This document shows, in pieces, positions 1 to 14,708 of a DNA stretch of 14,708 nt. The position numbers and the translations under genes were made by a program. The DNA lies in NCBI GenBank assembly GCA_025454125.1, contig JALOPA010000004.1:1-14708 (forward strand), given 5' to 3'. Source of the DNA: Thermodesulfobacteriota bacterium (lineage in GTDB: Bacteria > Desulfobacterota > DSM-4660 > Desulfatiglandales > HGW-15). Below the pieces are notes generated by a model. It was not told where the DNA came from, did no database searches, and saw nothing but the letters and a program-made list of their open reading frames with translations. Position 1 is the first letter of the stretch; the number at the start of each line of letters is the position of its first letter.

Positions 1-1
1 G

Positions 2-1573: not shown

Positions 1574-1593
1574 GAACGGACGGCCGAGCCTGC

Positions 1594-1757
1594 CAGCAGG
1601 TTGCTGAAAAACACCTGCTTTGCAGGATGCTCAAAAACGTCCAGATGCAAGGCACCCGAAATTCCGAAGAGCGAGGCGTACATAGCAGTACGCCGCAACG
1701 ATGAGGAATGAGGGTAACGCCGCAGATGGGCGGTTTTCAGCATCCTGCTAGAGCGCT
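1594..1757. repeat. Dispersed inverted-repeat element, copy 1 (short form)
   Basis: MITE-like element between two convergent gene ends. Its ends are imperfect inverted repeats of the type AGCAGGNTGCTGAAAA: left end at 1595-1610, right end at about 1733-1757 reading CTGCTAGAGCGCT. The interior includes a CCTGC-TTT-GCAGG hairpin near 1613-1625. The reverse complement aligns along almost its whole length with the element at 13190-13393, which carries two extra short palindromic insertions that are absent here. No ORF is present. The right end overlaps the last codons of the radical SAM gene. Confidence 0.85.
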
Positions 1758-2644: not shown

Positions 2645-2701
2645 GACTTATGTAACTCCTCAGCTATCTGTCCATCGATATGATTACTGACAAAACAGGG
2701 T

Positions 2702-2965
2702 TCACTGCGCCCCTTTCCTGAGGCGACGCATCATCGCCTGATGCGTGATTCCAGTCTCACCCGAGGCATCCAGAGCTTCTGACTCCGCAAGGTTTTGATA
2801 GAGTTCAACAAGACTCTGAAGCCTTTCATAATGGACCTGACTCATCACAACCAAATCCCCTTAGCCGTTCTTGGTGATGAAGACAGGCTCGTCCTCGCTG
2901 TGACACAGGTCGGAAATCTCATTCGCCCGATTTCGAAGATCGGATAACGGAATTATTTGTGGCAT
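2702..2965 (-). pseudogene. Phd/YefM-family antitoxin interrupted by an in-frame TAA
   Basis: Reading the minus strand from ATG at 2965 gives 34 residues starting MPQIIPLSDLRNRANEISDL and ending VFITKNG, then TAA at 2863-2861. The same frame continues GDLVVMSQVHYERLQSLVEL and runs to TGA at 2704-2702, 87 sense or stop codons in all. The two halves together have the length and order of a Phd/YefM antitoxin: an N-terminal DNA-binding part with the (V/F)ITKNGxGDLVVMS core, then a helical toxin-binding tail. One substitution at codon 35 explains the break. A GGGGAG ribosome site lies 6 nt before the ATG. After the stop, AAGGGG precedes in-frame GTG and ATG codons, so re-initiation of the tail is conceivable. 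No toxin gene lies downstream: the radical SAM gene begins 57 nt on. I judge it a pseudogene or a split orphan antitoxin. Confidence 0.8.
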
Positions 2966-2991
2966 GTCCTACTCCCCACAAATTCTGAGAC

Positions 2992-3020
2992 AAAATTATG
3001 ACAAACCTGACAGTTGTCAA
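2992..3020 (-). promoter_or_regulatory. Promoter with TGACA/TGTCA operator-like half-sites upstream of the antitoxin
   Basis: On the minus strand a perfect TTGACA (3020-3015) is followed after 17 nt by AATTTT (2997-2992), a weak -10; an alternative CATAAT lies three bases nearer. Overlapping the -35 is the palindrome TGACAGTTGTCA (3008-3019), with another TGACA at 2999-3003. Phd/YefM antitoxins repress their own promoters at short palindromes, so this is a reasonable autoregulatory operator (inference). Confidence 0.5.
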
Positions 3021-3029
3021 TGGTCTTTC

Positions 3030-3452
3030 TCAGGGTTTGGGTTCCGCATGCATCTCGACGATCACGCGGCCCCATCCCCCGCACGCCGGCCCCACGTCAT
3101 AGCACCCGGTCCGGCTGAACATCACCTCGTTCGGGTCCCTGCCGTTCAGAATGTTTTCAAAAAAAAGATTGATCATCACGGTCAGGTTGGGCATTAAAAA
3201 GGCGCACACCCGTTCAGGCGCTTCACGGGTCAGGAGGTTGCCGCTGGAGTCGAAGACGATTTTCTGGCCCTTCACATGGCCCGAGTGGCAGCCTTTGGAG
3301 TCCACGACCTCCGCAACCAGGTTGTACCTTGAGCCGGTAGCAAGGTTCTCGAAGAGACGCTGAAATTTAGGGCTGTCCTTGATGGGCTGGAACTCCTTGT
3401 CTTGCAGCCCCAATCTTTTCTGGATCAACTTGGAAACCTGCTCTTTGTCCAT
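3030..3452 (-). CDS. Small cysteine-containing protein, possibly TIGR04076-like
   Basis: 140-residue soluble protein of unknown function. The start at 3452 is chosen because AGGAGG lies 7 nt upstream; an in-frame upstream ATG at 3509 lacks such a site and would read into a palindromic repeat. The first 45 residues are a helical, charged segment. The rest has a C-x2-GH-x2-G motif (C55, GH at 58-59) and C83, followed by a strikingly constrained-looking segment with NLFFENILNGRDPNEVMFSR and then TGCYDVGPACGGWG (C117, C124). The CxxGHxxG pattern and size resemble the uncharacterised TIGR04076 family, but I could not confirm that assignment. Four cysteines and a histidine would allow metal or cluster binding. 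There is no signal peptide or membrane segment. It is transcribed away from the hydrolase gene at 4000. Confidence 0.7.
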   Translation of the reverse strand: MDKEQVSKLIQKRLGLQDKEFQPIKDSPKFQRLFENLATGSRYNLVAEVVDSKGCHSGHVKGQKIVFDSSGNLLTREAPERVCAFLMPNLTVMINLFFENILNGRDPNEVMFSRTGCYDVGPACGGWGRVIVEMHAEPKP

Positions 3453-3508
3453 GGGAGATCCTCCTTTCCAAATCCCTTCACCCTTTCCCACAGGAGACGG
3501 TGTCGCCA

Positions 3509-3578
3509 TGTCATTTCGAGAAATCCTGATTCTACGAGAAGCCTGAATCTAAGATTTCTCCCTTCGGTCGAAATGACA
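3509..3578. repeat. Palindromic intergenic element with 11-bp terminal inverted repeats
   Basis: TGTCATTTCGA at 3509-3519 is the exact inverted complement of TCGAAATGACA at 3568-3578. Inside, GAGAAATC (3518-3525) pairs with GATTTCTC (3553-3560). This forms a roughly 70-bp fold with no coding content, of the 'CATTTCGA...GAGAAATC' type seen scattered between genes in many bacteria. It lies immediately upstream of the small cysteine-rich gene's ribosome site region. Confidence 0.75.
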
Positions 3579-3628
3579 AAAAACATGCCCCGCATGATTG
3601 CGACACAGCCCCCAAGTTGCGGGAGAGG

Positions 3629-3646
3629 TTTACCCGCCTCCGGCGG
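3629..3646 (-). repeat. Micro-palindrome (CCGCCGGAGGCGG plus GTAAA tail)
   Basis: On the minus strand this reads CCGCCGGAGGCGGGTAAA, nearly the same as units at 10511-10530 (minus) and 13297-13316 (plus). It interrupts a purine-rich GGGAGAGG ... GGGGCAGGGTGAGGGGG stretch (about 3620-3680) of a kind usually continuous in intergenic repeats, which suggests insertion. The rest of 3579-3816 holds no gene I can support. Confidence 0.6.
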
Positions 3647-3771
3647 CGCCGAAGGCGACCAGGGGCAGGGTGAGGGGGCCGAAGTTCAAAACACTCAGTT
3701 TCTTCATATCAAATTAAGGGGAACACAAGAAAGGCAGAAAATCAAAAGAATTGCTTGTGGAATGTATCCTC

Positions 3772-3800
3772 TTGAATATGAAAACCGGATCGTCTATGTT
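3772..3800 (+). promoter_or_regulatory. Weak candidate promoter upstream of the MBL-fold gene
   Basis: TTGAAT (3772-3777), a 17-nt spacer and TATGTT (3795-3800) give a 4/6 plus 4/6 match to sigma70 boxes in a locally AT-rich stretch; a perfect TATAAT at 3809-3814 has no -35 partner. If used, the transcript would run through the palindromic element at 3817-3968 before reaching the gene at 4000. Confidence 0.3.
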
Positions 3801-3816
3801 TTAAAATCTATAATCC

Positions 3817-3968
3817 GATGGCCTTGTAAGAAGTCTCAAGAGCACGTTTCCCGTCATTCCGGCGCAAGCCGGAATCCATCCGTCTATTGGGGATAAAGGC
3901 TATCTGGACTCCGGTTCTTGTCCGCCTCGGGCGGGTTCACCGGAGTGACGACTTCTTCCTGAGCCGTC
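3817..3968. repeat. MITE-like element, family GTCAYTCC, copy A
   Basis: The outer inverted repeats are 3817-3835 (GATGGCCTTGTAAGAAGTC) and 3950-3968, complementary at 14 of 19 positions. Inside are two hairpins. The left one is ATTCCGGC-GCAA-GCCGGAAT (3856-3875). The right one is ACTCCGG (3908-3914) with CCGGAGT (3940-3946), whose 25-nt loop contains a further palindrome, TCCGCC-TCG-GGCGGG (3921-3935). Copies B and C at 8255-8378 and 11989-12096 share the architecture. No ORF or transposase is present. The element ends 32 nt before the ATG of the MBL-fold gene, so it sits in that gene's leader. Confidence 0.75.
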
Positions 3969-3999
3969 TAACTTGAACACCGTCGGAAAGGAAAAAACT

Positions 4000-4725
4000 A
4001 TGCCGGAAATCACCAAAGGAGTTTACTTTATCCCGGGGCAGGATGAAATGATCCCGGACGCTCATGTGTACGTGCTCGGGCTGCCTTCCTCCCAGGATGT
4101 ATCGATTGTCGATGCAGGGCTCATGGGCAAAGGCGGCTACAAGATCCAGGCCATCCAGAAGCTCGGGATCAAGCTCGCGGACATCAAGAGAATCATCATG
4201 ACCCACACCCATCTCGATCACATCGGGTGCCTCAAGGAGATCAGGGCGCAGATCCCTCATGCCGAGCTGTGGATTCACGAGGACGAGGCCGATCCCATAG
4301 AGAAGGGGGACGAAAGAGGCGTCTACGGCATGGAAATGTTTCGCAGCATGTGCCAGAGCCAGTACGGTCTCAAGTCCGGAGACTTCAAGTTCAAGGTGGA
4401 CAGGAAACTCAAGGAGGGGGACAAACTCGACATGGGCGGTCTGTCCTGGGAGGTCCTCCATATCCCCGGACATTCTGCGGGGAGTGTCGCACTGTATGGG
4501 CGGAGCCAGAAGGTGCTTATTCCAGGGGACGTGGTCTACGCGGATTATGCGATCGGCCGATTTGACCTTCACGGAGCAGACGGCGGCGTGTTGGCGAAGT
4601 CTCTGGCGCGGCTTGCGGAATTGGAAGTCGATATTCTCCTGCCCGGGCACAACAGGGTGGTCAAGGGTGTGAAGCCCGGCTACATCCGGGACACGGCAAA
4701 GCAGTGGGGGCCGTACCTGAAATAG
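4000..4725 (+). CDS. MBL-fold metallo-hydrolase (glyoxalase II-like)
   Basis: 241-residue cytoplasmic metallo-beta-lactamase-fold hydrolase with a full set of metal ligands: HTHLDH at 69-74, H158 in HIPGHSAGS (154-162), D177 in IPGDVVY (174-180) and H217 in LPGHN (214-218). This is the binuclear zinc/iron site of glyoxalase II-type hydrolases. The spacing and the single-domain length match general MBL-fold thioesterases or lactonases, but the substrate cannot be read from sequence. The start at 4000 is preferred because GGAAAGG lies just upstream; an in-frame TTG at 3973 falls next to a repeat. The stop codon at 4723-4725 abuts a GTGACGAGTGAC tandem repeat. It is monocistronic by appearance, divergent from the gene at 3030-3452. 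Confidence 0.9.
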   Translation: MPEITKGVYFIPGQDEMIPDAHVYVLGLPSSQDVSIVDAGLMGKGGYKIQAIQKLGIKLADIKRIIMTHTHLDHIGCLKEIRAQIPHAELWIHEDEADPIEKGDERGVYGMEMFRSMCQSQYGLKSGDFKFKVDRKLKEGDKLDMGGLSWEVLHIPGHSAGSVALYGRSQKVLIPGDVVYADYAIGRFDLHGADGGVLAKSLARLAELEVDILLPGHNRVVKGVKPGYIRDTAKQWGPYLK

Positions 4726-5090
4726 TGACGAGTGACAGGTGACGAGTGACAAGAAAGAATAACTTGTTTCTCGTTACTTGTGAGCGTAGCGGACTCGTCA
4801 CCGAAGACCGAAACAGAATCCCTAAAGTTGAAAGGCCAAAACCAAAAGAAAACCCAACCACGAAAGCACGAAAAAAGGAAAGCGAGAAGAAGTGCCTAAA
4901 ATGCCTAAAGTGAACTAAAGTGCCTAAAGTCGGGAAAACAGAACAAAAGAAAAACCAAACACGAAAGCACGAAAATGAGAAGGCACGAAGAAGAAATATC
5001 TAGGGTTCAAAATGAGCAAAACTGAAGCGCAGAAGAAAAAGATGAAAAAACTCTTCGTGTCTTTCCTCCTTTCGCGCTTCCGTGGTGTCC
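4725..5090. repeat. Quasi-palindromic simple-repeat region between the MBL gene and sufC
   Basis: GTGACGAGTGAC occurs twice (4725-4736, 4739-4750), and an inverted arm ACTCGTCAC closes the block at 4793-4801. Then TGCCTAAA appears at 4893-4900, 4902-4909 and 4921-4928, and CACGAAAGCACGAAAA at 4859-4874 and 4960-4975. The opposing arm is TTTCGCGCTTCCGTGG at 5070-5085, matching the inverted complement at 14 of 16 positions. There is no ORF with coding character, and no clear promoter for sufC could be picked out. Confidence 0.7.
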
Positions 5091-5121
5091 CTTCTTGGTT
5101 TTGCGGGAAAGGAGTTTTGAC

Positions 5122-5880
5122 ATGCTGCTTATTGAAAATTTGAAAGTGGAGCTCGGGGACAAGATTCTGCTCGATCACATCGACCTGGAGATCAAGCCAG
5201 GCGAGACCCACATCCTCTTCGGGCCCAATGGGTCGGGAAAGACATCCCTTCTCATGACCATCATGGGGTATCCCCAGTACAAGGTGGTGGCCGGGAAAAT
5301 GACCTTCAAAGGAGCGGACATCACGTACATGCCCATCAATGAACGGGCCAAGCTGGGCATCGGCATGTCCTACCAGCGGCCGCCGACCATCCACGGCCTG
5401 AAAACCCGGCAGATGGTCAAGATCTGCGGCAAAGGCGAGGCCGACGCTGAAAAACTGGCCGGTCGAGTGAACTTCTCGGAGTTCCTGGACCGGGATGTGA
5501 ATGCAGGCTTCTCGGGCGGGGAGATCAAGAGATCGGAGCTTCTGCAGCTCATGGCCCAAAAGCCGGATCTCATGCTTTTCGATGAACCGGAATCAGGGGT
5601 GGACATGGAGAACATTCACCTCGTGGGCAAGACCATTGCCAAGCTTCTTGAGAAAGACTTTGATCCTGAAGGCGATGAAAAGCCAAAGATGCAGAAGAAG
5701 AGAGAGCGGAGAAAGATGGGGCTCATCATCACCCATACCGGATATATTCTGGACTATGTGGCGGCGGACAAGGGCCAGGTGCTCTATGGGGGGAGGCTGA
5801 GCTGCATCAGCAACCCGAGAGAGATTTTGAGCTGCATCGGCCAGAATGGATATGAGGAGTGTGTGCGATGCATGGCGTAG
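5122..5880 (+). CDS. sufC: SufC-like ABC ATPase (SmsC type)
   Basis: 252-residue soluble ABC ATPase of the Fe-S cluster assembly class, expected to bind the SufB-like protein encoded next and drive conformational change in the scaffold. Visible are Walker A GPNGSGKTS (34-42), Q-loop Q85, ABC signature FSGGE (130-134), Walker B LMLFDEPESGVD (150-161; the SufC-type DEPESG) and switch His H205. Compared with E. coli SufC it has an extra highly charged stretch at about 178-199 and ends GYEECVRC, a C-terminal CxxC not found in E. coli SufC; both look like traits of the SufC paralogues in two-gene systems (inference). The ATG at 5122 has AAGGAG 8 nt upstream. Its end overlaps the next gene by 13 nt, so translation is coupled. 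No sufS, sufU, sufE or Rrf2 regulator gene lies nearby. Confidence 0.92.
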   Translation: MLLIENLKVELGDKILLDHIDLEIKPGETHILFGPNGSGKTSLLMTIMGYPQYKVVAGKMTFKGADITYMPINERAKLGIGMSYQRPPTIHGLKTRQMVKICGKGEADAEKLAGRVNFSEFLDRDVNAGFSGGEIKRSELLQLMAQKPDLMLFDEPESGVDMENIHLVGKTIAKLLEKDFDPEGDEKPKMQKKRERRKMGLIITHTGYILDYVAADKGQVLYGGRLSCISNPREILSCIGQNGYEECVRCMA

Positions 5881-7091
5881 ACGATCTGAGACAGAGAGCG
5901 GCAAGAGCCATCGACAAGAAAGCGGCTTTCGGGCCTGATGTGGATTTGAACCAATTTGATCCGGCGCCGGTGCCCCACACGTACCTGGCGGACGAGGACA
6001 TGTGCGAGCTTCCGCCTGAAGAGCAGAAACGGCTTATCATGGCCGGACTGGACGTGACCCAGAAGGACCGGAGCGGCACTTTTTTTCAGAAAGACACGTC
6101 GGTGATTCACTGCCACAGTCAGCAGCAGGGCATTGAAGTGATGCCCATCCGCAAGGCCCTGGAGCAGGAGTGGATCAAGGATTACTACTGGAAGCTTGCC
6201 GCTGTCGATGCAGACAAGTTCACCGCTGCCGCGGAACTGGGACTTCATGACGGATACATGATCCGCGCCCTGCCGGGGAGCAAATCGATCTACCCGGTAC
6301 AGGCTTGCCTCTATTTGGACAAGGAAGGGCTCCAGCAGAACGTGCACAATATTATCATCGCAGAGGAAGGCTCGGAGCTCCACATCATCACGGGCTGTTC
6401 CACGTCCCCTCACATGAAAAAAGGGATACACGTGGGGATCTCCGAGTTTTTCATCAAGAAGAACGCCAAGCTCAGCTTCACCATGATTCACAATTGGGCT
6501 GAAGACATGGTGGTCCGGCCCCGGTCCGTCGCTCAGGTGGAAGAAGGCGGGCTGTTCCTCAACAACTACATCTGCATGAAGCCGACGAAGTCCCTGCAGA
6601 TGTACCCGACCACGCACCTGATCGGAAGAGATGCGGTGGCGCGCTTTTACAGCATTATCGTGGGAAGCCCGGGATGCGAGCATGACCTGGGAGGCAGGAT
6701 CTTTCTGAAGAACCCCGGGAACAAGGCGGAGATCGTGGCGCGCACCATCAGCAACGGCGGGAGGATTATCGCGCGGGGGCATCTCATCGGAGAGGTCGCC
6801 GACATCAAGGCTCACCTGGAGTGCAAGGGGCTGCTGTTGAAGGGCGGGCTGATCCACGCAATCCCGGAGCTGGAAGGCCATGTGGACGGGGTTGAAATGT
6901 CCCACGAGGCGGCGGTTGGAAAGATCGCCCAGGAGGAGATTTCCTATCTCATGTCCCGGGGGCTGAGCGAGGAAGAGGCCACCTCCACCATCGTCCGCGG
7001 TTTTCTGAATGTGGACATCCCCGGGCTTCCCCCGCAGTTGCGGGCCGAGATCGACAGGGCGATCGAAGAGAGCGACAAGGATGTGATGTAG
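5868..7091 (+). CDS. sufB: SufB/SufD-family Fe-S scaffold protein (SmsB type)
   Basis: 407-residue scaffold of the SufB/SufD family, with the right-handed beta-helix core expected from about residue 135 to 345. The C-terminal landmark region is HLECKGLLLKG followed by PELEGHVDGVEMSHEAAVGKI. C319 aligns by eye with the catalytic cysteine of E. coli SufB (C405) and H346 with the conserved SufB/SufD histidine. The C-terminal RGLSEEEATSTIVRGFL helix is the SufC-binding type. It is shorter than E. coli SufB (about 495 residues) because the N-terminal part is reduced. The start at 5868 (ATG, GGAG 8 nt upstream, inside sufC) is preferred to GTG at 5859. A lone SufB homologue paired with SufC is what has been named SMS (SUF-like minimal system), in which a SmsC2B2 complex is proposed. 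Assignment as B-like rather than D-like rests on C319. Confidence 0.9.
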   Translation: MHGVDDLRQRAARAIDKKAAFGPDVDLNQFDPAPVPHTYLADEDMCELPPEEQKRLIMAGLDVTQKDRSGTFFQKDTSVIHCHSQQQGIEVMPIRKALEQEWIKDYYWKLAAVDADKFTAAAELGLHDGYMIRALPGSKSIYPVQACLYLDKEGLQQNVHNIIIAEEGSELHIITGCSTSPHMKKGIHVGISEFFIKKNAKLSFTMIHNWAEDMVVRPRSVAQVEEGGLFLNNYICMKPTKSLQMYPTTHLIGRDAVARFYSIIVGSPGCEHDLGGRIFLKNPGNKAEIVARTISNGGRIIARGHLIGEVADIKAHLECKGLLLKGGLIHAIPELEGHVDGVEMSHEAAVGKIAQEEISYLMSRGLSEEEATSTIVRGFLNVDIPGLPPQLRAEIDRAIEESDKDVM

Positions 7092-7191
7092 CGATTTGCC
7101 CCTGGGGCACCTGCACCTGGGGAACAGGGGGTCAGAAGAGATCTCCAGTGGGAGAGACGTAACTTAATTCAGGGAAAGAGAGGAAAATCCT

Positions 7192-8175
7192 ATGGGACGA
7201 GTCTTTAGAGTGCTTTTGGTTGGAGCGATCGTTTTGTCGCTGGCCTCCATGGCCGAGGCAAAGACCATCACGATCAAGGCGGTCACGGCGTGGCCCAAGT
7301 CTGTTTGGGAAGTCGGGAACTTCATGAAATTTCAGGACATCGTCAAGGAGCGGGTGGCGCAGAAATACCCCGGCCAGCTCGAGATCCAGTATGCCGGCGG
7401 ACCTGAAGTCATCCCCAATCAGGAGCAGGTGGAAGCCGCCCGGATGGGCGTGGTGGACATGGTCTTCACGACGGACGGATACTATGTGTCGGCGGTACCG
7501 GAGGTCAATGCTCTGAGCGTGTCCATGCTCGACGGGTGGGAAGAGCGTGCCAAGGGCGTGAACGCCTTCCTGGACAAGATCCACCAGGAGAAGGTCGGCT
7601 GCGTCTATCTTGGACGGCTGGGTCACAACCTTCCTTTCACGATCTACCTCACGAAGCCCGTGAAGGGCCTCGACGACCTGAAGGGACTGAAGATCCGGTG
7701 CAGCCCGACCCTCGTCGGCTTTCTGAAGAAAATCGGGGCCAATCCGGTCGTTATTGCCCCTCCGGAGGTCTACACCGCCCTGGAACGAGGTGTGGTGGAC
7801 GGCTATACGTGGCCTGCAGGCCTGATCAAGGATTGGGGATGGGAAAAGGTCACGAAGTGTGTCGTTCAACCGGGCGTTTACAACGGCGCCAACGTGGTGG
7901 TCATGAACAAGAAAAAGTGGGATGAGATTCCCGCGGACCTCCAGAAGCTTCTGATCGAGGCGGAAGACGAGGCAGCGCGCTTTGCCAAGCAGCGCGCTCT
8001 TGATTTGATCAAGAATGAAAAGGAGGCTCTCGATAAGATGGGGGTGCCGTATGTCCAGCTTCCGCCTGATGAGGCGAAGAAACTGGTCGATGCGGCCTAC
8101 TCGGCCCTGTGGGATGTCATTCTGGAAAAGTCGCCCGTAAACGGCCCCAAGCTGAAGGAGATGGTGACCAAGTAG
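7192..8175 (+). CDS. dctP: TRAP transporter solute-binding protein, DctP family
   Basis: 327-residue periplasmic receptor of a tripartite ATP-independent transporter. The N-terminus is a Sec signal peptide: MGRVFRVLL, a hydrophobic core, and a likely cut after SMAEA (residue 23). The mature protein starts KTITIKAVTAWP. Family marks are LKGLKIRC (163-170), whose arginine R169 matches the residue that clamps the substrate carboxylate in DctP receptors, and ALERGVVDGY (196-205) with TWPAG after it. The ligand is probably a carboxylate but cannot be named. The start is ATG with GAGAGGA upstream. It precedes dctQ by 262 nt, a gap that holds a strong hairpin and a MITE-like element, so receptor and permease genes may be expressed at different levels. 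Confidence 0.93.
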   Translation: MGRVFRVLLVGAIVLSLASMAEAKTITIKAVTAWPKSVWEVGNFMKFQDIVKERVAQKYPGQLEIQYAGGPEVIPNQEQVEAARMGVVDMVFTTDGYYVSAVPEVNALSVSMLDGWEERAKGVNAFLDKIHQEKVGCVYLGRLGHNLPFTIYLTKPVKGLDDLKGLKIRCSPTLVGFLKKIGANPVVIAPPEVYTALERGVVDGYTWPAGLIKDWGWEKVTKCVVQPGVYNGANVVVMNKKKWDEIPADLQKLLIEAEDEAARFAKQRALDLIKNEKEALDKMGVPYVQLPPDEAKKLVDAAYSALWDVILEKSPVNGPKLKEMVTK

Positions 8176-8215
8176 GCTATCGGTTTTAGATCGAAGGTCC
8201 AAGCCAGCCTAGCCG

Positions 8216-8235
8216 CTGGCCGCTGAGGCGGCCAG
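8216..8235 (+). terminator. Strong hairpin after dctP (terminator or mRNA-processing hairpin)
   Basis: CTGGCCGC-TGAG-GCGGCCAG is a perfect 8-bp stem with a 4-nt loop, 40 nt after the dctP stop, followed by only TTTGAT, so a weak intrinsic terminator. An alternative stem, GCCAGC (8203-8208) with GCTGGC (8215-8220), shares bases with it and is mutually exclusive. Such a structure could hold down dctQM relative to dctP or stabilise the dctP transcript. Confidence 0.45.
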
Positions 8236-8254
8236 TTTGATCGAATAAGAAACG

Positions 8255-8378
8255 GATGGCTTCGAAAGAAGCCCCCGAGGTCGTCACTCCCGCGAATGAA
8301 GCCTGTCCCCGCGCAGGCGGGGAGCGGGAGTCCAGAGCACTGAGGAAAGGCTGGATTCCCGCCTCCGCGGGAATGACA
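8255..8378. repeat. MITE-like element, family GTCAYTCC, copy B
   Basis: The left arm at 8255-8273 (GATGGCTTCGAAAGAAGCC) matches the left arm of copy A at 15 of 19 positions and the inverted right arm of copy C at 17 of 19. The inner hairpins are ACTCCCGC (8286-8293) with GCGGGAGT (8324-8331), and ATTCCCGC-CTCC-GCGGGAAT (8355-8374). The first hairpin's loop is 30 nt here but only 4 nt (GAAG) in copy C; the extra sequence is itself a perfect palindrome, TCCCCGC-GCAG-GCGGGGA (8306-8323). The right outer arm is not recognisable. The element separates dctP from dctQ. Confidence 0.75.
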
Positions 8379-8437
8379 GATCAAGAGCCTTGTGACACTC
8401 AAGAGGCTCCAAGTTTCATACAAGAGGAGGAGGACTC

Positions 8438-9004
8438 TTGCTGAGCAGGTTTCTGGACAGGATATTGACGGGGATGGCCGTGCTGGCAGGCCTCTTCCTC
8501 CTCTTCATCACCTTCTCCATCAGCTACGGAATATTCACGCGCGCCCTGAACCTGCCAAGCCCGGTCTGGACGATCCAGTTCAACGAATACTCGCTGCTCT
8601 GGATGACGTTCCTGGGATCGGCGTGGGCGCTCAGCAGGCGAAAGCACGTGGCTGTGGATATCCTCACCTCCCGTCTGGGGCCTGAGAGCAAAAGAATCGC
8701 GGAGGTTGCCCACAGCCTGGTGGGGATGGTTTTGTGCGGGGTCCTCTGCTGGTACAGTGCTCTCATGACCCTGAATTTCTTTCAACGCGGGGTCACGGAT
8801 GTCCAGGCTGTGGACATGCCGAAGTCTCTCATCCTCCTCGTCATTCCTGCCGGGTTCCTTGTCCTCACCGCTCAGTTTCTGCGAAACCTGACGGCCTCTT
8901 TGGGTAGAAAAAAGTCTGATGCGCAAAGGGCCGAGCGGCAGGAGCCTGCGTCTGATTCGACGATCGGATCGCCGGAAGCGACTGCCGAAGGGAGGAAGGG
9001 CTGA
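8438..9004 (+). CDS. dctQ: TRAP transporter small permease, DctQ family
   Basis: 188-residue inner-membrane protein with four predicted hydrophobic helices at about 12-33, 50-66, 90-113 and 130-148, the usual DctQ layout. WTIQFNEYSLLWMTFLGSAWALSRRKHVAVDIL (45-77) is the typical conserved region, with a glutamate in helix 2 and the R-x-x-H-V-x-V-D motif. The tail after residue 155 is polar and low in complexity. The start is TTG at 8438, supported by AGGAGGAGG with 4-7 nt spacing and by the lack of any better in-frame start. Only 2 nt separate its TGA from the dctM ATG. DctQ forms the membrane domain with DctM and is needed for transport, although it is not itself the channel. Confidence 0.92.
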   Translation: MLSRFLDRILTGMAVLAGLFLLFITFSISYGIFTRALNLPSPVWTIQFNEYSLLWMTFLGSAWALSRRKHVAVDILTSRLGPESKRIAEVAHSLVGMVLCGVLCWYSALMTLNFFQRGVTDVQAVDMPKSLILLVIPAGFLVLTAQFLRNLTASLGRKKSDAQRAERQEPASDSTIGSPEATAEGRKG

Positions 9005-9006
9005 TC

Positions 9007-10317
9007 ATGGAATGGTGGGGCGTTCTCAGTCTGTTCATCCTCGGGCTGCTCATCGTGCTGGCCTCGGGCTTTCCCATCGCCTTCGGCTTCCTCCTGATCA
9101 ACCTCGTGGGAATCCTCGTCTTCATGGGGCCCATGGGGCTCCAGCAAATGACGCTCCAGATCTTTTCCTCCCTCTCCACGTTCGCCCTGACCCCCATCCC
9201 CCTGTTCATCCTCATGGGTGAGCTGATGTTTCACTCGGGCATCGCCAACAACACGATCGATGTGGTCGACAAATGGCTGGGCCGTATCCCAGGCCGTTTG
9301 AGCCTGCTGGCCGCAGGCACGGGAGTGCTCTTTGCCGCCCTGAGCGGATCCACCCTGGCCAACACGGCCATGCTGGGAACCGTGCTCCTCCCGGAAATGC
9401 GTCGGAGGGGGTACAAGTCGTCCATGTCCGTAGGCCCTATCATCGGGGTCGGGGGCCTGGCCATGCTCATACCGCCCTCTTCGCTCGCTGTCGTGCTGGC
9501 GAGCATCGGACACATCTCCGTAAGTAAGATTCTGGTCGGTGGGGTCATTCCGGGGCTGCTCCTGGGCGCTTTGACCGCCGCCTACGTGATCGTGCGATGC
9601 TGGCTGGACCCTAGCGTTGCCCCCGGCTACGAGGTGGAGCGGACGAGCTTTCTCCAAAAAGTCATAGGAACGATCAAGTATGTGCTCCCTCTGGGGTTCA
9701 TCATCTTTATGGTTCTGGGGCTCATGCTTCTCGGAATCGCGACGCCCACGGAGGCCGCTTCCACCGGAGCTCTCGCAACGATCCTGGTCACGGCGGTTTA
9801 CGGGCGACTGAACTGGAAAATGATCAAGGCCTCCCTCGTCGGGACCCTGGACATTTCGATCATGGTCTTCATGATCATTGCCGGCTCCAACACCTTCAGC
9901 AGCCTGCTGGCGTTCACGGGCGCCACCCGGGGGCTTCTGGGCGTTGTGGAAAACCTGAACGTGGCGCCGCTGATCGTCCTGATCGGGATGCAGCTCGTCG
10001 TGTTCGTGATGGGAACCTTCATGGAAACCATTTCCATCATGATGATCTGCATGCCCATCTTCATGCCCATCGTGAAGATGCTGGGTTTTGATCCCGTGTG
10101 GTTCGGGGTCCTCATGCTCGTTAACTTTGAAACCGGCTTCATCACCCCTCCTTTCGGCATGCTGTTGTTTGTCATGAAGGGGGTGGCCCCTGACTTGTCC
10201 ATCAAGGAGATCTGCTACGCTGCCGCACCTTTCATCCTGATCGAAATCTTCGTCATGGCTATGATCATTGTCTGGCCGGAGCTCGTCCTGTGGCTGCCGA
10301 ATCTTGTCAAGGGGTGA
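9007..10317 (+). CDS. dctM: TRAP transporter large permease, DctM family
   Basis: 436-residue, very hydrophobic inner-membrane protein with about a dozen membrane segments, full length for DctM. The typical signatures are the ALSGSTLANTAMLGTVLLPE region (111-130) with the following MRRRGY, LAMLIPPSSLAVV (151-163) and, near the C-terminus, a TPPFGMLLF segment within FETGFITPPFG. It forms the sodium-driven elevator channel that accepts solute from the DctP receptor. It is translationally linked to dctQ (2-nt gap; GGGAGGAAGGG within the dctQ end serves as the ribosome site). No regulator gene is linked, so the substrate stays open. Confidence 0.95.
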   Translation: MEWWGVLSLFILGLLIVLASGFPIAFGFLLINLVGILVFMGPMGLQQMTLQIFSSLSTFALTPIPLFILMGELMFHSGIANNTIDVVDKWLGRIPGRLSLLAAGTGVLFAALSGSTLANTAMLGTVLLPEMRRRGYKSSMSVGPIIGVGGLAMLIPPSSLAVVLASIGHISVSKILVGGVIPGLLLGALTAAYVIVRCWLDPSVAPGYEVERTSFLQKVIGTIKYVLPLGFIIFMVLGLMLLGIATPTEAASTGALATILVTAVYGRLNWKMIKASLVGTLDISIMVFMIIAGSNTFSSLLAFTGATRGLLGVVENLNVAPLIVLIGMQLVVFVMGTFMETISIMMICMPIFMPIVKMLGFDPVWFGVLMLVNFETGFITPPFGMLLFVMKGVAPDLSIKEICYAAAPFILIEIFVMAMIIVWPELVLWLPNLVKG

Positions 10318-10352
10318 GAGCTCGGGAAAGCGGACAAGGGACAAGGCGGGAG

Positions 10353-10373
10353 GAGACAAAATTTCGTTGTCTC
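10353..10373 (+). terminator. Weak hairpin after dctM
   Basis: GAGACAA-AATTTCG-TTGTCTC has a 7-bp stem and a 7-nt loop, 36 nt after the dctM stop, with no T-run. It is possibly a 3'-end stabilising or weak terminating structure. The remainder of 10374-10494 shows no gene or recognisable signal. Confidence 0.3.
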
Positions 10374-10494
10374 ATGACTGCCGGTGTGCTAAAAAAAACG
10401 CTAAGGTTCAAAAGGGCTTACATGGGCGTGACTGAAGATGTCACAACTGAAGCAGGACCTTGGGCAGGACTGAGGCCTTTTCCGGGGTGACTCT

Positions 10495-10548
10495 GGTGGC
10501 ACGGACAAACTTTTATCCGCCTCCGGCGGAGTGTTTGCCCGTGCCACC
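10495..10548. repeat. Long hairpin with a micro-palindrome in its loop
   Basis: The outer arms 10495-10510 and 10533-10548 pair at 15 of 16 positions (GGTGGCACGGACAAAC against GTTTGCCCGTGCCACC). The 22-nt loop contains TCCGCC-TCC-GGCGGA (10516-10530), on the minus strand TCCGCCGGAGGCGGATAAAA, the same unit that occurs at 13297-13316. The region 10549-10635 up to ilvE has no clear promoter that I can defend. Confidence 0.8.
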
Positions 10549-10635
10549 TGTCCAGATCAGCCGGTCCCATGCAAGCACTCTTGAACGCTACTGAAAACTT
10601 CGATCACTTGCCGTAAACAGGGAGGAAGAGGAATC

Positions 10636-11709
10636 ATGGAAATCAAGATCCTATCTGCCGGGCCGGAGCAGATGAAGAAAAAGCCGACCGATGAATCGAA
10701 TCTGGGGTTCGGGGACATTGTGACGGATCACATGTTCCTCATGGATTTTCAGGAAGGCAAGGGGTGGGTCAACCCCCGCATCGAGCCCTACCACAGCCTT
10801 GCCCTTGATCCGGCAGCCATGGTTCTTCACTACGGCCAGGAGGTCTTTGAGGGATTGAAGGCTTACCGGGGAAAGGACGACGGCGTTTACCTTTTCAGGG
10901 CGAGAGACAATTTCGTGCGGCTCAATCGCTCCGCGGTTCGCGTTTGCATGCCCGAGGTGGATGTGGATTTCACGATGGAGGCCCTGAAAAAGCTCGTCCT
11001 CCTGGACAAAGACTGGATCCCTCGAAGCCCGGGAACGTCGCTTTACATCCGGCCCACGATGATCGCCACAGAGCCTCACCTGGGAGTTCGGCCTGCCAAG
11101 GCGTACCTCTTCTACATCATCATCGGACCTGTGGGGGCCTATTACAAAGAGGGCCTCAACCCGGTAAAGATCTGGGTGGAAGACAAGTATGTGAGAGCCG
11201 CAGTGGGCGGATTGGGTGAGGCCAAGACTGTCGCCAATTACGCGGCCAGCCTTCTGGCGGCAGAGGAAGCCAAGAAGAAGGGTTTCACCCAGGTGCTGTG
11301 GCTGGATGCGGCCCAGAGGAAGTTCGTGGAAGAGGTGGGGACCATGAACATGTTCTTCGTCATCGACGATGAAGTCATCACCGCGCCTCTCGGCGGCAGC
11401 ATCCTCCCCGGTGTGACCCGCGCATCGGTGATTCACATGGTGAAGGACTGGGGCATGAAGATGTCGGAGCGTTTTCTGGCCATTGATGAAGTGATCGCCG
11501 CAGCGAAAAATGGAAGACTCAAAGAGGCCTTCGGAACAGGAACCGCTGCCGTCATTTCGCCCGTGGGCCAGATCACCTACAAGGGAAAGGACTATGTCGT
11601 GGCAGGAGGGAAGATGGGCGCCCTCTCCCAGAAGCTTTACAATGAAATCGTGGCCATCCAGTACGCAGAAAAGAAAGATCCCTATGGATGGAGGATGAAG
11701 ATAGGATAA
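10636..11709 (+). CDS. ilvE: Branched-chain amino acid aminotransferase
   Basis: 357-residue PLP enzyme of fold type IV, length and order matching the long (eukaryote-like) IlvE group. It interconverts leucine, isoleucine and valine with their 2-oxo acids using glutamate/2-oxoglutarate. Visible are GQEVFEGLKAYRG (67-79), LNRSA (96-100), SLYIRPTMIATEP (135-147), K197 in GGLGEAKTVANYAASL as the Schiff-base lysine (matching human K202), EEVGTMN (232-238) and ILPGVTR (256-262). The GNY of most relatives is ANY here. GGGAGG and AGAGG lie before the ATG at 10636. It stands alone between two repeat-rich gaps. Such enzymes can also transaminate 2-oxo-4-methylthiobutanoate to methionine, which fits the neighbouring mtnA (inference). 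Confidence 0.94.
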   Translation: MEIKILSAGPEQMKKKPTDESNLGFGDIVTDHMFLMDFQEGKGWVNPRIEPYHSLALDPAAMVLHYGQEVFEGLKAYRGKDDGVYLFRARDNFVRLNRSAVRVCMPEVDVDFTMEALKKLVLLDKDWIPRSPGTSLYIRPTMIATEPHLGVRPAKAYLFYIIIGPVGAYYKEGLNPVKIWVEDKYVRAAVGGLGEAKTVANYAASLLAAEEAKKKGFTQVLWLDAAQRKFVEEVGTMNMFFVIDDEVITAPLGGSILPGVTRASVIHMVKDWGMKMSERFLAIDEVIAAAKNGRLKEAFGTGTAAVISPVGQITYKGKDYVVAGGKMGALSQKLYNEIVAIQYAEKKDPYGWRMKIG

Positions 11710-11713
11710 GAAA

Positions 11714-11889
11714 GTGCAAGGTGCACGGTACAGGGTGCACGGGGAAGAACAAGAAGAAGGTGCACGGTTCACGGAGAAAGACAGAAGAAAAGACGGTGCA
11801 AGGGAAAAAATAAGAGAAGAAAAGTGCACGGCGCACGGCGCGGGCCCCGGAGATTTTCACCGTGGACCTTGTACCTTGCGCCGTGTACC
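11714..11889. repeat. GTGCACGG simple-repeat block with inverted arm
   Basis: GTGCACGG occurs exactly at 11721-11728, 11735-11742, 11760-11767 and 11824-11831, with degenerate copies between, in a purine-rich background. At 11860-11889 the opposite-strand equivalents follow (CCGTGGAC, CCTTGTAC, CCTTGCGC, CCGTGTAC), so the block can fold back. It begins 5 nt after the ilvE stop and has no coding content. Confidence 0.65.
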
Positions 11890-11928
11890 ATTTTGCCGAC
11901 GGAATCACCATTGGTGCCCTCGCAGAAA

Positions 11929-11964
11929 TTGCGTTCACCCTTCGATACCTCAGGGCGAACGCAA
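11929..11964. repeat. Short palindromic element (TTGCGTTC ... GAACGCAA)
   Basis: TTGCGTTC-A-CCCT (11929-11941) pairs with AGGG-C-GAACGCAA (11952-11964) around TCGATACCTC. It is of the widespread 'CCTTCGATACCTCAGGGCGAAC' intergenic type and sits directly upstream of MITE copy C. Confidence 0.6.
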
Positions 11965-11988
11965 TCGAGCGTCCATGAGTACTCGGGG

Positions 11989-12096
11989 CGTCACTCCCGC
12001 GAAGGCGGGAGTCCAGCAACGTTTTTAAAGACTGGATTCCCGCCTCCGCGGGAATGACAGAAAAAAGCGTTTTCGGACTTCTTACGAAGCCATCAA
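11989..12096. repeat. MITE-like element, family GTCAYTCC, copy C
   Basis: The inner hairpins are ACTCCCGC-GAAG-GCGGGAGT (11993-12012) and ATTCCCGC-CTCC-GCGGGAAT (12036-12055), both perfect, followed by TGACA. The outer right arm is at 12076-12096; its inverted complement matches the left arm of copy B at 17 of 19 positions. The left outer arm is absent, replaced by another palindrome. The remaining bases up to mtnA contain only its ribosome site. Confidence 0.75.
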
Positions 12097-12142
12097 TGTT
12101 TGAAGAAGAGAAAAATCCTTTTTGACATAGAAGAGGGACTCC

Positions 12143-13180
12143 ATGTTGCCAACCATTGAATGGAAGGGCAAAACCATCCGCATGATCGACCAGAGACGGC
12201 TCCCGGCCAAGGTCGAGTGGGTCCGATGCAAGAATGATCAGGAGGTGATCAAGGCCATCCGGGAAATGGTGATCCGGGGAGCGCCCGCCATTGGCGTGGC
12301 CGCAGCCATGGGGCTTTCGCTGGGTTCGGAAGCCATCCGGGCGGACACCTACAATGCCTTTGAGCGTCGATTCAGAATGATGGCGGACCGGATGGTGAAA
12401 GCCAGGCCCACGGCCGTGAATCTGCGGTGGGCCGTGGAACGCATGCTCCTCTTGGTGCAACAGATGGCGGGCACGGATCCGGAGGAAATCCGGATCGCCC
12501 TCAGGGAAGAGTCGGAGAAGATCCTTGCGGAAGACATAGAGATCAACCGGAAGATCGGAGAGCACGGCAACAAGATCGTTCCCCGAAAAGCGGTGATTCT
12601 GACTCACTGCAATGCAGGCTCCCTGGCCACGGGAGGCTACGGGACAGCCCTGGGGGTCATCCGGGCGGCCCACGAAGCAGGAAAGCGAATCGAAGTCATC
12701 GCCGATGAAACAAGGCCGTGGCTGCAAGGTCTTCGGCTCACGGCCTTCGAGCTCATGGAGGACGGGATCCCTGTGACCGTGATTGCCGACAATGCGGCAG
12801 GCTCCTTGATGCGCCGAGGCAAAGTGGACCTCGTGATCACCGGTGCGGACCGGATTGCGGCCAATGGAGACGTGGCAAACAAGATCGGCACCTATCAGGT
12901 GGCTGTTCTCGCCAAGGAGAACAAGATCCCTTTTTATGTGGCCGCTCCCCTTTCCACCATTGATCTGAGAATCCAGTCGGGAGACAGGATACCGGTGGAG
13001 GAAAGGGACCCTTCGGAGGTCTCCCACTTTCGGAAGATCCCGGTAGGGCCTCGCGGGGTCAAGGCCTATAACCCGGCCTTTGACGTGACGCCTGCCAGGT
13101 ACGTGACGGGGATCATCACAGAAAAAGGGATTCTGAAAGCCCCCTACGGGAGAAAGATCCAGGGGCTGTTCACAACGTGA
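12143..13180 (+). CDS. mtnA: S-methyl-5-thioribose-1-phosphate isomerase
   Basis: 345-residue cytoplasmic enzyme of the eIF2B-related isomerase family. It converts 5-methylthioribose 1-phosphate to 5-methylthioribulose 1-phosphate in methionine salvage. Signatures are MVIRGAPAIGVAAAMG (42-57), THCNAGSLATGGYGTALG (154-171) with catalytic cysteine C156, IADETRPWLQG (186-196), GADRIAANGDVANKIGTY (234-251) with catalytic D236, and FYVAAPLSTID (264-274). These place the protein in MtnA rather than ribose-1,5-bisphosphate isomerase or eIF2B, which differ around the THCN motif. The length is normal. The ATG at 12143 has AAGAGGGA upstream. No mtnP, mtnN or later salvage gene adjoins it, but speD and a spermidine-synthase-like gene follow, so it probably handles methylthioadenosine from polyamine synthesis. 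It ends 10 nt before a dispersed repeat. Confidence 0.95.
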   Translation: MLPTIEWKGKTIRMIDQRRLPAKVEWVRCKNDQEVIKAIREMVIRGAPAIGVAAAMGLSLGSEAIRADTYNAFERRFRMMADRMVKARPTAVNLRWAVERMLLLVQQMAGTDPEEIRIALREESEKILAEDIEINRKIGEHGNKIVPRKAVILTHCNAGSLATGGYGTALGVIRAAHEAGKRIEVIADETRPWLQGLRLTAFELMEDGIPVTVIADNAAGSLMRRGKVDLVITGADRIAANGDVANKIGTYQVAVLAKENKIPFYVAAPLSTIDLRIQSGDRIPVEERDPSEVSHFRKIPVGPRGVKAYNPAFDVTPARYVTGIITEKGILKAPYGRKIQGLFTT

Positions 13181-13229
13181 GGTGACAGTCTAGCAGGCTG
13201 CTGAAAAACGCCCATCTGCTGCGTTACCC

Positions 13230-13248
13230 GGCCAGAGGCTGGCAAGCC
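13230..13248. repeat. Micro-palindrome insertion in copy 2 (GCCAG-AGG-CTGGC type)
   Basis: GGCCAGAGGCTGGCAAGCC contains GCCAG-AGG-CTGGC, a 5-bp stem with a triloop and an AAG tail. In copy 1 the flanks GTTACCC and TCATYCCTC are directly joined, so this 19-nt unit is an insertion or an exact loss in copy 1. Its stem-triloop-stem-plus-AAG layout parallels the unit at 13297-13316 but its sequence differs. Confidence 0.75.
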
Positions 13249-13296
13249 TCATCCCTCGTCACTGCGACGTACTGGAATGTACGTCTCATTCCTCGG

Positions 13297-13316
13297 TCCG
13301 CCGGAGGCGGATAAAG
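13297..13316 (+). repeat. Micro-palindrome TCCGCCGGAGGCGGATAAAG in copy 2
   Basis: This 20-nt unit is a 6-bp stem (TCCGCC/GGCGGA), a GGA loop and a TAAAG tail. In copy 1 the flanking bases (TCGG and the AATTTCGGG equivalent) are contiguous, giving a clean empty site. The same 19-nt core plus A occurs on the minus strand at 10511-10530, and a close variant at 3629-3646. Confidence 0.82.
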
Positions 13317-13432
13317 ATTGTCGGGTGCCTTGCATCTGGACGTTTTTGAGCAGCCTGCGTAGCAGGTGTTTTTCAGCAACCTGCTAGAGCGCTACAACGT
13401 GAGGATATTTGGTTGAGAGAACAGAAAAAAGT

Positions 13433-13461
13433 TTGACATACGCGTTCCAAATCCCTATAAG
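13433..13461 (+). promoter_or_regulatory. Sigma70-type promoter for speD
   Basis: TTGACA (13433-13438), a 17-nt spacer and TATAAG (13456-13461) match the consensus at 6/6 and 5/6 in an AT-richer stretch just after repeat copy 2. A start of transcription near 13468 would give a leader of about 97 nt containing the hairpin at 13488-13508. Confidence 0.8.
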
Positions 13462-13487
13462 AGGGACTAACAAATCTCCCTACGGGG

Positions 13488-13508
13488 CGATCCGCCGAAG
13501 GCGGATCG
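13488..13508 (+). repeat. Perfect hairpin in the speD leader (micro-palindrome variant)
   Basis: CGATCCGCC-GAA-GGCGGATCG is a 9-bp perfect stem with a GAA triloop, core TCCGCC...GGCGGA as in the other micro-palindromes. It is followed by GCAAG and lies between the promoter and the ribosome site of speD. It could affect leader stability; no T-run follows, so termination is unlikely. Confidence 0.7.
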
Positions 13509-13564
13509 GCAAGAAAGGGGTTGAGACTTTCTGCTGATTATTTGAAAGAAAGGGGGTGAGGGCC

Positions 13565-13951
13565 TTGCGTTCCTTACTTGACCTTGTGCTCATAGATCTC
13601 TATGAGTGCGAACACGAGAAGCTCCTCGATTCCGAGGTGATCAAAGAGGGGATGCTGACGGCTGCAGGGCTCATGGGAGCCGAGGTAGTCGCGGTGTCCT
13701 TTCATACTTTTGAGCCCTGGGGTGTGAGCGGGACCGTGACCATTGCGGAGTCCCACCTGGCGGTTCACACCTGGCCTGAATACAACTTCGCAGCCATCAC
13801 GTTCGAGACCTGCGGCAAAATGGATCACAAGAAGGCGTACAAATTCCTGACGGAGTTCTTCGGATCAAAAAGCCCGAAGATCACCATCCAGAAAAGGGGA
13901 TTCATGGACACCTACGAAGGGGAGATCCAGTACAAGCAGGTCGCAAGCTGA
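13565..13951 (+). CDS. speD: S-adenosylmethionine decarboxylase proenzyme
   Basis: 128-residue prokaryotic-type SpeD. It self-cleaves to give a pyruvoyl group and decarboxylates S-adenosylmethionine, providing aminopropyl groups for spermidine. The processing site is in IAESHLAVHTWPEY. Counting from the GTG at 13556, the cut is between E65 and S66, the proton-donor histidine is H71 and the catalytic cysteine is C86 in FETCGKMD; from the TTG chosen here these are E62, S63, H68 and C83. I prefer TTG at 13565 because AAGGGGGTGA (13550-13559) pairs with the 16S tail over ten bases at normal spacing; that sequence overlaps the alternative GTG at 13556, which has no good site. The gene has its own promoter and leader and faces the spermidine-synthase-like gene. 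The ID is firm; the start is less so. Confidence 0.93.
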   Translation: MRSLLDLVLIDLYECEHEKLLDSEVIKEGMLTAAGLMGAEVVAVSFHTFEPWGVSGTVTIAESHLAVHTWPEYNFAAITFETCGKMDHKKAYKFLTEFFGSKSPKITIQKRGFMDTYEGEIQYKQVAS

Positions 13952-14078
13952 CTGAGCAATCGGGCTTACGATGATTTGCCCCTGAACGTACCCACCGGCA
14001 CCTCCATCTGCGAAACGCTCTCCGCGTAAGCATGCCCCTGAGGTATGCCCTCCCAACCGGCTGACGCCACGCCTTTCC

Positions 14079-14708
14079 TCACCGACTCTGAGCCGGTGCT
14101 CTAACCATTTCGCCGAATTCAGGAGGCAGTTTTTCGATGGCGGAGACCCTGCGCTCTTCAGCCCTGGTGGGGTCTGACTGGCGAAGCGCGCTCATGGCGA
14201 TGAGATCGGCGCCGGCCGAAACGTATGCCCTTGCTTCCGGCTCGAATTCGGCCAGGTAAGGGTCCTGGTCGAGGGGCGCTTCCTTCATGATATCCTCCAG
14301 AAGCCGCAAAAGCTGCTCTCCAACCAGGGCCCTTTCAATGCCGGCCACACGGCTCTGATAGCTCTGGGGTGAAGAGAACTCGATGGCAGGACGATCGTCG
14401 GTGTTTACGGGGAAGGCCCTGAAAAGCCCGGCCGCCTGCCGGAGGTTGCCGCCATAGAGCATAAGCGCGTTGGCTCTGATAAGAGGCTCACCGAGCGCCG
14501 GCCCGTTCGGGTTCATGCGCCGAAAGGCCTGGGTCAAGGCGGCCGGCTTCAGGGGCGATGGGCCGGCGTGGCCGACGAGGGCCATGGTCGGACGGTCGGT
14601 GAGAAAAGAATTCCGCCACAGCGTGACGGAGTCGAAAACCTGGAGCATGGTGTTGACAATGGTGGAGAACTCCTGGCGCGAGAGCTGGTAGAGGGCCAGC
14701 CACTGAAC
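14079..14708 (-). CDS. C-terminal part of a spermidine-synthase-family protein (5' end outside window)
   Basis: The last 209 residues of a protein whose frame runs off the window end; the ATG at 14648 is only internal. The opening VQWLALYQLSRQEFSTIVNT, then VTLWRNSFLTDRPTMALVG and the later FPVNTDDRPAIEFSSP, are typical of the C-terminal half of large spermidine-synthase-like proteins, often fused to a membrane transporter-like domain. The final about 80 residues are helical with no recognised motif. The catalytic aminopropyltransferase core, if present, lies beyond the window, so activity cannot be judged. The gene is convergent with speD (127 nt apart; nothing recognisable in the gap), which supports a polyamine-related role. 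Medium-high confidence in the family, low in exact function. Confidence 0.75.
   Translation of the reverse strand, partial: VQWLALYQLSRQEFSTIVNTMLQVFDSVTLWRNSFLTDRPTMALVGHAGPSPLKPAALTQAFRRMNPNGPALGEPLIRANALMLYGGNLRQAAGLFRAFPVNTDDRPAIEFSSPQSYQSRVAGIERALVGEQLLRLLEDIMKEAPLDQDPYLAEFEPEARAYVSAGADLIAMSALRQSDPTRAEERRVSAIEKLPPEFGEMVRAPAQSR

Follow-up and report, generated by a model that had tools for sequence, protein, structure and literature searches.

Elements of the IS200/IS605 type end in hairpins, insert at a short target sequence and generate no target duplication. The small dispersed repeats (SDRs) of cyanobacteria were reportedly found by Elhai et al. in 2008 to be 21-27 nt in size. The SDRs of Nostoc and other cyanobacteria are described as very small repeats and termed mobile, with at least one family, SDR5, precisely inserted within another sequence, HIP1 (PMC3116915, PMC4390886). 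REPs and REPINs, which are accompanied by RAYT genes, are short palindromes, one end of which carries a conserved tetranucleotide; some REP families are reported within other palindromes (PMC3733652, PMC3116915). The yeast mitochondrial GC clusters are presented as small hairpins, rich in GC, that multiply, merge and become shuffled by a mechanism that is left open, the GC42 family being 42 nt long with AG as its target nucleotides (PMC4478555).

We analyzed a stretch of 14,708 nt from a Thermodesulfobacteriota bacterium (contig JALOPA010000004.1, positions 1 to 14,708), hereafter the window, in which a 19-nt hairpin unit is nested within other repeats. We recognized no published description of this unit in a literature search of partial coverage, and its closest known kinds are the cyanobacterial SDRs and the GTAG/CGTC-tagged REPs. 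Like the SDRs, it is a very small repeat precisely inserted within other sequence, but it is found in another phylum, has another sequence, measures 19 nt and consists of a lone hairpin whose YAAR tail gives it a direction. With the REPs and REPINs it shares the short palindrome, the conserved tetranucleotide at one end and the multiplicity of copies; however, it lacks the GTAG or CGTC tag, its profile being RYAAR (reverse complement YTTRY). The yeast GC clusters are likewise small, GC-rich and proliferating hairpins, but differ in the length and target given above and in residing in organelle DNA. Finally, the unit recalls IS200/IS605 elements in its hairpin and in that its targets are not generally duplicated, whereas it is geneless and comprises one hairpin, 19 nt in all.

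Empty and filled copies of a repeat within the window

The original prediction held that two copies of a dispersed repeat lie in opposite orientation in the window (Table 1), and that copy 2 carries two extra palindromic units whose flanks are contiguous in copy 1. Our alignments confirm that this empty/filled pair is real. The host repeat is about 165 nt long, and copy 2 differs from copy 1 by two large alignment gaps; upon removal of both inserts, copy 2 is reduced to 166 nt and, over 165 aligned bases, shares 143 with copy 1. At both junctions the flanks are contiguous not only in copy 1 but also in six empty copies from relatives; copy 2 has one further extra base, 4 nt to the right of the second junction (GATTGT versus GATT-T), which is seen in all seven comparisons. 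The flanking CC lets the first insert, CCGGCCAGAGGCTGGCAAG, slide by 2 nt, and its earlier placement at 13230-13248 is thus equivalent to ours. Its best fold is GCCAG-AGG-CTGGC followed by AAG, not a 6-bp stem followed by CAAG, and its membership in the 19-nt family is uncertain. The second insert, TCCGCCGGAGGCGGATAAA, had been taken as 20 nt (13297-13316), but is best read as 19 nt.

Table 1. Coordinates of the host repeat, the 19-nt unit and associated hairpins in the window
Feature	Position	Strand	Basis
Host repeat copy 1 (empty)	1594..1757	-	Alignment to copy 2 and junction comparison
Diverged unit GCCGCCGGAGGCGGGTAAA, 2 mismatches, adjoining a second small palindrome (CGCCGAAGGCG)	3629..3647	-	Mismatch search, sequence
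REP-like pair with one empty arm (loop GCAA) and one arm holding the unit	3853..3951		Sequence
Unit CCCGCCCGAGGCGGACAAG, within a REP-like hairpin loop	3917..3935	-	Additional copy, absent from the original prediction
Hairpin GGTGGCACGGRCAAAC...GTTTGYCCGTGCCACC with the unit in its loop	10495..10548		Sequence; DNA fold z -6.5 on 10498-10550
Exact unit copy	10512..10530	-	Mismatch search of the window
Host repeat copy 2 (filled)	13190..13393	+	Aligned with copy 1 and with copies from relatives
First 19-nt insert CCGGCCAGAGGCTGGCAAG, hairpin then (C)AAG	13228..13246	+	Clean junction versus empty copies
Second 19-nt insert, unit TCCGCCGGAGGCGGATAAA in copy 2	13297..13315	+	19-nt gap versus empty copies

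With up to three mismatches allowed, the second insert has three matches in the window, whereas shuffled sequence gives a mean of 0.01. The recurrences foreseen on the minus strand, at 10511-10530 within a hairpin loop and, in diverged form, at 3629-3646, were both recovered with ends displaced by a single base. That the unit lies inside another repeat is shown for two of the four sites, those starting at 13297 and 3917. It could not be demonstrated for the site at 10512, where the surrounding strong hairpin was found as a dispersed repeat in none of 99 genomes, and consequently this site has no empty counterpart in that set. The filled REP at 3917 does have a potential empty relative (L158), but this comparison is not decisive alone, since the matching stretch is short (E 0.003) and two comparisons put the gap at 19 nt and at 8 nt, respectively.

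Other hairpins and tracts in the window deserve mention in their own right. A REP-like hairpin at 8282-8331 holds a different palindrome of about 27 nt (TGAAGCCTGTCCCCGCGCAGGCGGGGA) in its loop, whereas a copy of this hairpin near 11988-12015 is plain. A hairpin at 13487-13513 (CGATCCGCCGAAGGCGGATCG), followed by GCAAG and positioned upstream of a 131-aa ORF at 13556, resembles the unit in layout. The intergenic tracts at 4840-4993 and 11711-11890 are of low complexity, with imperfect short repeats (CACGAAAGCACGAAA and GTGCACGG).

A directional 19-mer with sharp boundaries in relatives

The relatives nearest by the mtnA gene (Desulfatiglandales MAG SG_15_bin78, here G001; L056) are 76-77% identical in protein sequence across the best segment. 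Across the relatives the unit takes the form of a directional 19-mer, YCCGCCNGAGGCGGRYAAR, with a 6-bp stem, a 3-nt NGA loop and a YAAR tail. Its boundaries were profiled from 169 unique sites of the 13-nt core, grouped into 74 clusters (a first clustering that chained, the largest having 50 sites), from which 54 representatives came from searches without fixed flanks. Among these, a pyrimidine precedes the core in 43 and a purine follows it in 42, and the conserved stretch runs Y, core, R, Y, A, A, R, with random sequence after it; the boundaries are sharp. RYAAR directly follows the core in 12 of the 54 representatives, against 23 of 2916 background right-flank positions (0.8%). As the tail is missing in the other 42, a bare core is no proof of the element, and much of the core count does not represent full elements. 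One locus (L099) has the unit as a head-to-tail tandem with a period of 19.

The core was found in 53 of 61 genomes around the relative G031, with a maximum of 119 copies in G028 and 22 in G013. A reversed core served as control and gave 0-2 matches per strand in most of the 61 genomes; yet it equaled or exceeded the core in eight (G015, G027, G042, G047, G049, G050, G056 and G062), and the core alone is therefore weak evidence. A bulk sample of G028 (274 kb) yielded six core matches, some in tandem, with ACGAG and ATTTAT tails also present. Among the relatives of G001, TCCGCCNGAGGCGGATAAA occurs in 13 of 148 (G001 itself counted), and the full 19-mer in 9 of 198 genomes across the phylum (G001 again counted), with the reversed control giving no match in either set. 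The full 19-mer was also recovered in 42 stretches of viral contigs. One 18-kb viral contig (IMGVR_UViG_3300036770_006310; L389 and L402) has five full 19-mers. A general class of hairpins with YAAR tails beyond the TCCGCC stem showed no clear enrichment, as 7 of 136 loop-3 hairpins carried the tail against a background of 1.9%, four of the seven having the unit's own stem and two of those four coming from the window.

These distributions bear on the proposal that GC-rich short hairpins are selected at many sites, for instance as terminators or mRNA ends, and that the same sequence simply recurs. The breadth of the core, the eight genomes in which its reversed control does as well, and the large fraction of representatives with no tail would all be in keeping with such convergence. 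However, it predicts neither the direction, the NGA loop and the tail, nor the exact empty sites, and the full pattern, when reversed, is absent throughout both genome sets. The exact 19-nt gaps described below weaken it further, and we consider convergence very improbable.

Empty sites in many flanking contexts

The full 19-mer occupies 78 of the 169 core sites, in 41 flank contexts, 18 of which come from loci of searches with a fixed TAAA tail; stricter positional merging leaves 28 context groups instead of 41. A unit-free counterpart was found for 18 of the 41. In ten of these 18 contexts the gap in the best match is exactly 19 nt (nine of the ten at E < 1e-4), in three it is 18, 20 or 21 nt, and the remaining five best matches lack a gap of about 19 nt (8, 38 and 51 nt, and two gapless). 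Five more contexts matched unit-bearing sequences only. A separate junction-spanning comparison gave 25 contexts with matches, several of them self-matches or tail artefacts. In the ilvE region, all five relatives compared had matches at 68-81% identity, in short pieces from which no orthologous empty site could be read. Thus, the fixed ends and precise empty sites that characterize an SDR-type unit of about 20 nt are both found here. The original prediction proposed a very small mobile or copied element and anticipated many precise 19-20 nt insertions with one boundary; the consistent boundary and the ten exact 19-nt gaps support this.

Clear empty/filled pairs, each formed by two copies of one repeat, are L284/L108 (G053) and L318/L316 (G041). 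The unit of the second pair has TAAA on either side, which is readable as a 4-nt duplication. Nevertheless, only two of the 41 contexts have a left 4 nt identical to the tail; target-site duplication is absent as a general feature, with L318/L316 ambiguous.

Probable multiplication with larger repeats

The unit is found inside several kinds of larger repeats, including the host repeat, REP loops and others. In G031, CCCGCCGGAGGCGGATAAA stands at the position of the copy-2 unit in 4 of 13 scored host copies, a proportion biased toward filled copies because the query contained the inserts; the 13 were scored out of 103 first-look candidates, the survey scoring at most 13 per genome. Since the site is filled in these copies too, the insertion in copy 2 was probably inherited with the host repeat rather than gained in an independent event. 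An alignment of 42 host copies (40 stretches among 101 matches listed, plus the two window copies) reveals ten different inserts of 19-52 nt at a few recurrent positions, a count from which we excluded gaps close to the 3' end and the long insertions seen in L199 and L200. These short palindromic inserts belong to host copies of G031, G024 and G021 (L176-L215). In G001, one REP form has an insert in 20 of 20 matches, 18 of them of equal length, although empty forms could be missed because the pattern fixed a REP variant; the stem is TCCGCC in seven and TCCTCC in 12, with pairing kept in most. This pattern had no match in the other four genomes searched. As a separate observation, L313, L316, L318, L321 and the 52-nt insert of the G024 host copies share an outer hairpin, CCCTGTNRAAT...ATTYNACAGGG, whose two inner hairpins differ wholesale between copies, as if exchanged.

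Such filled families, in G001 as in G031, raise the question of whether the unit is a passenger only, which, after an ancient entry into a few large repeats, owes all later copies to their amplification, recombination or transfer, with no mobility of its own. The context clusters, which reach eight sites, and the several clear empty/filled pairs that are themselves repeat copies would fit this account. It is harder to reconcile with 28-41 distinct flank contexts, with boundaries that are sharp and common to them, and with exact 19-nt gaps in ten different contexts; hence, we regard a purely passive history as unlikely.

Target preference and placement

Target positions were picked after a first look at the flanks of the 41 contexts and evaluated on the 28 groups, with the viral-contig sites as a second set. 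An A at position -2 of the unit is seen in 19 of 28 groups (p 3.6e-6) and again at 21 of 42 viral-contig sites (p 3.4e-5). A purine at -1 (22 of 28 groups, p 0.002) did not repeat in the viral set (26 of 42, p 0.13), a pyrimidine at -4 exceeded background in the groups (20 of 28, p 0.017) and was borderline in the viral set (26 of 42, p 0.05), and a T at +3, above background in 16 of 28 groups, likewise did not repeat (6 of 42). The insertions thus show a bias, that of A at -2, and no fixed tetra- or pentanucleotide beside them.

We also considered and set aside targeting of hairpin loops as a general rule. Pairing between left and right flanks is above permutation (0 of 2000), driven by few sites including two in the window, and clear loop placement (stem score >=8) is confined to two of the 41 contexts, both in the window; against it, a fold of the host repeat, in which five insertion positions were tested, gave no preference for unpaired bases (P 0.87). 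It is, at most, a partial feature.

The flanks likewise bear on replicative template switching, whereby a stalled nascent strand would pair through 2-4 bases (a YYAR target with the YAAR beside the donor), copy the hairpin and tail, and return, with no dedicated enzyme. The likeness of the left flank to the tail, the TAAA on either side in L318/L316, the few sites within hairpin loops, and the stem variants TCCTCC and TCCGCC that remain paired, as correction within a palindrome would give, are all compatible with it. However, such a process is expected to leave variable ends, whereas the profile is sharp and 10 of the 18 comparisons give exactly 19 nt; moreover, a left flank equal to the tail is the exception noted above. 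We see template switching as rather unlikely, though with enough in its favor to be the main rival.

The search for a cognate enzyme

The original prediction suggested a linked RAYT. Y1 transposases (PF01797) are present in 12 of 12 genomes, but the 19-mer adjoins the gene at none of 50 Y1 loci, taken out of 82 matches listed, many of the loci stopping at contig edges. The suggested link was not found in this sample, and in having no Y1 gene found beside it, as in measuring 19 nt, the unit differs from the REPs and REPINs. A bare core occurs at three Y1 loci, once in an IS end hairpin (L220) and twice at about 0.7-1.2 kb from the gene (L454 and L466). For 40 of these loci we could place an HUH frame and inspect the flanking hairpins, and a YAAR/YTTR tag was seen in 2 of 39. 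At L451 and L466, hairpins preceded by gtag flank the Y1 genes.

One IS200-type end beside a TnpA gene shares the core of the unit, as TCAAG-CCACCGCCTCAGGCGGTGG (L220, in G029), with a similar end at L293 (G013). The end hairpin CCACCGCCTCNGGCGGTGG, at L220 465-488, L293 and L468-L472, contains that core. The notion that the unit is a solo end of such an element draws on these two ends and on the abundance of the core in G013. But this, the one candidate end examined, occurs in only 3 of 148 relatives (G029, G035 and G013), is missing from G028, G024 and G001, all rich in the core, and has a tail orientation unlike that of the unit. We accordingly rejected an origin from the end of a co-resident IS, which we hold to be extremely improbable.

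Conclusions

The 19-nt unit has defined boundaries and a direction, several precise empty sites, and a preference for A at -2. Taken together, its fixed ends and direction, the bias in its targets and the rarity of any duplication beside it point to a recognized element rather than drift. The reading we favor, with confidence evenly poised, is that a 19-nt micro-element is copied as a discrete piece by hairpin insertion in trans and is then spread by its host repeats. The unit, as hairpin, NGA loop and YAAR tail, would be copied to new places in one piece, and would enter without general target-site duplication preferentially where an A at -2, and probably also a purine at -1, stands in the left flank. 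The hairpin may be inserted in single-stranded form, with a candidate enzyme acting in trans and recognizing hairpin and tail by a logic akin to that of REPs and Y1 transposases; this single-strand chemistry is our best-supported guess. Once inside a larger dispersed repeat, the unit would multiply mainly as a rider on that repeat. Filled sub-families of host repeats are directly seen, and we infer the order of events. Several results weigh against this reading: the 19-mer adjoined none of the 50 Y1 loci, the fold of the host repeat showed no bias of the insertions toward unpaired bases, eight of the 18 best comparisons deviated from exactly 19 nt, and most core representatives had no RYAAR tail.

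More tentatively, and with doubt outweighing belief, we propose that the unit represents a class of YAAR-tailed, 19-nt mobile hairpins distinct from the GTAG/CGTC REPs, mobilized in trans by a putative single-strand enzyme, occurring in Desulfobacterota and in viral contigs from metagenomes, and spread by the larger repeats in which it has repeatedly become nested. If true, the YAAR-tailed unit would be among the smallest DNA pieces proposed as discrete insertions.

The cyanobacterial SDRs pose the question of how DNA pieces of about 20 nt are copied elsewhere, and so does this family. Given a unit of fixed length and fixed ends, a measurable target bias and empty/filled pairs, this question becomes testable, since both boundary and target are known with a precision that would allow assays of candidate enzymes or of replication-stress models. 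Moreover, the nesting observed here points to a way in which the intergenic repeats of environmental bacteria are assembled.
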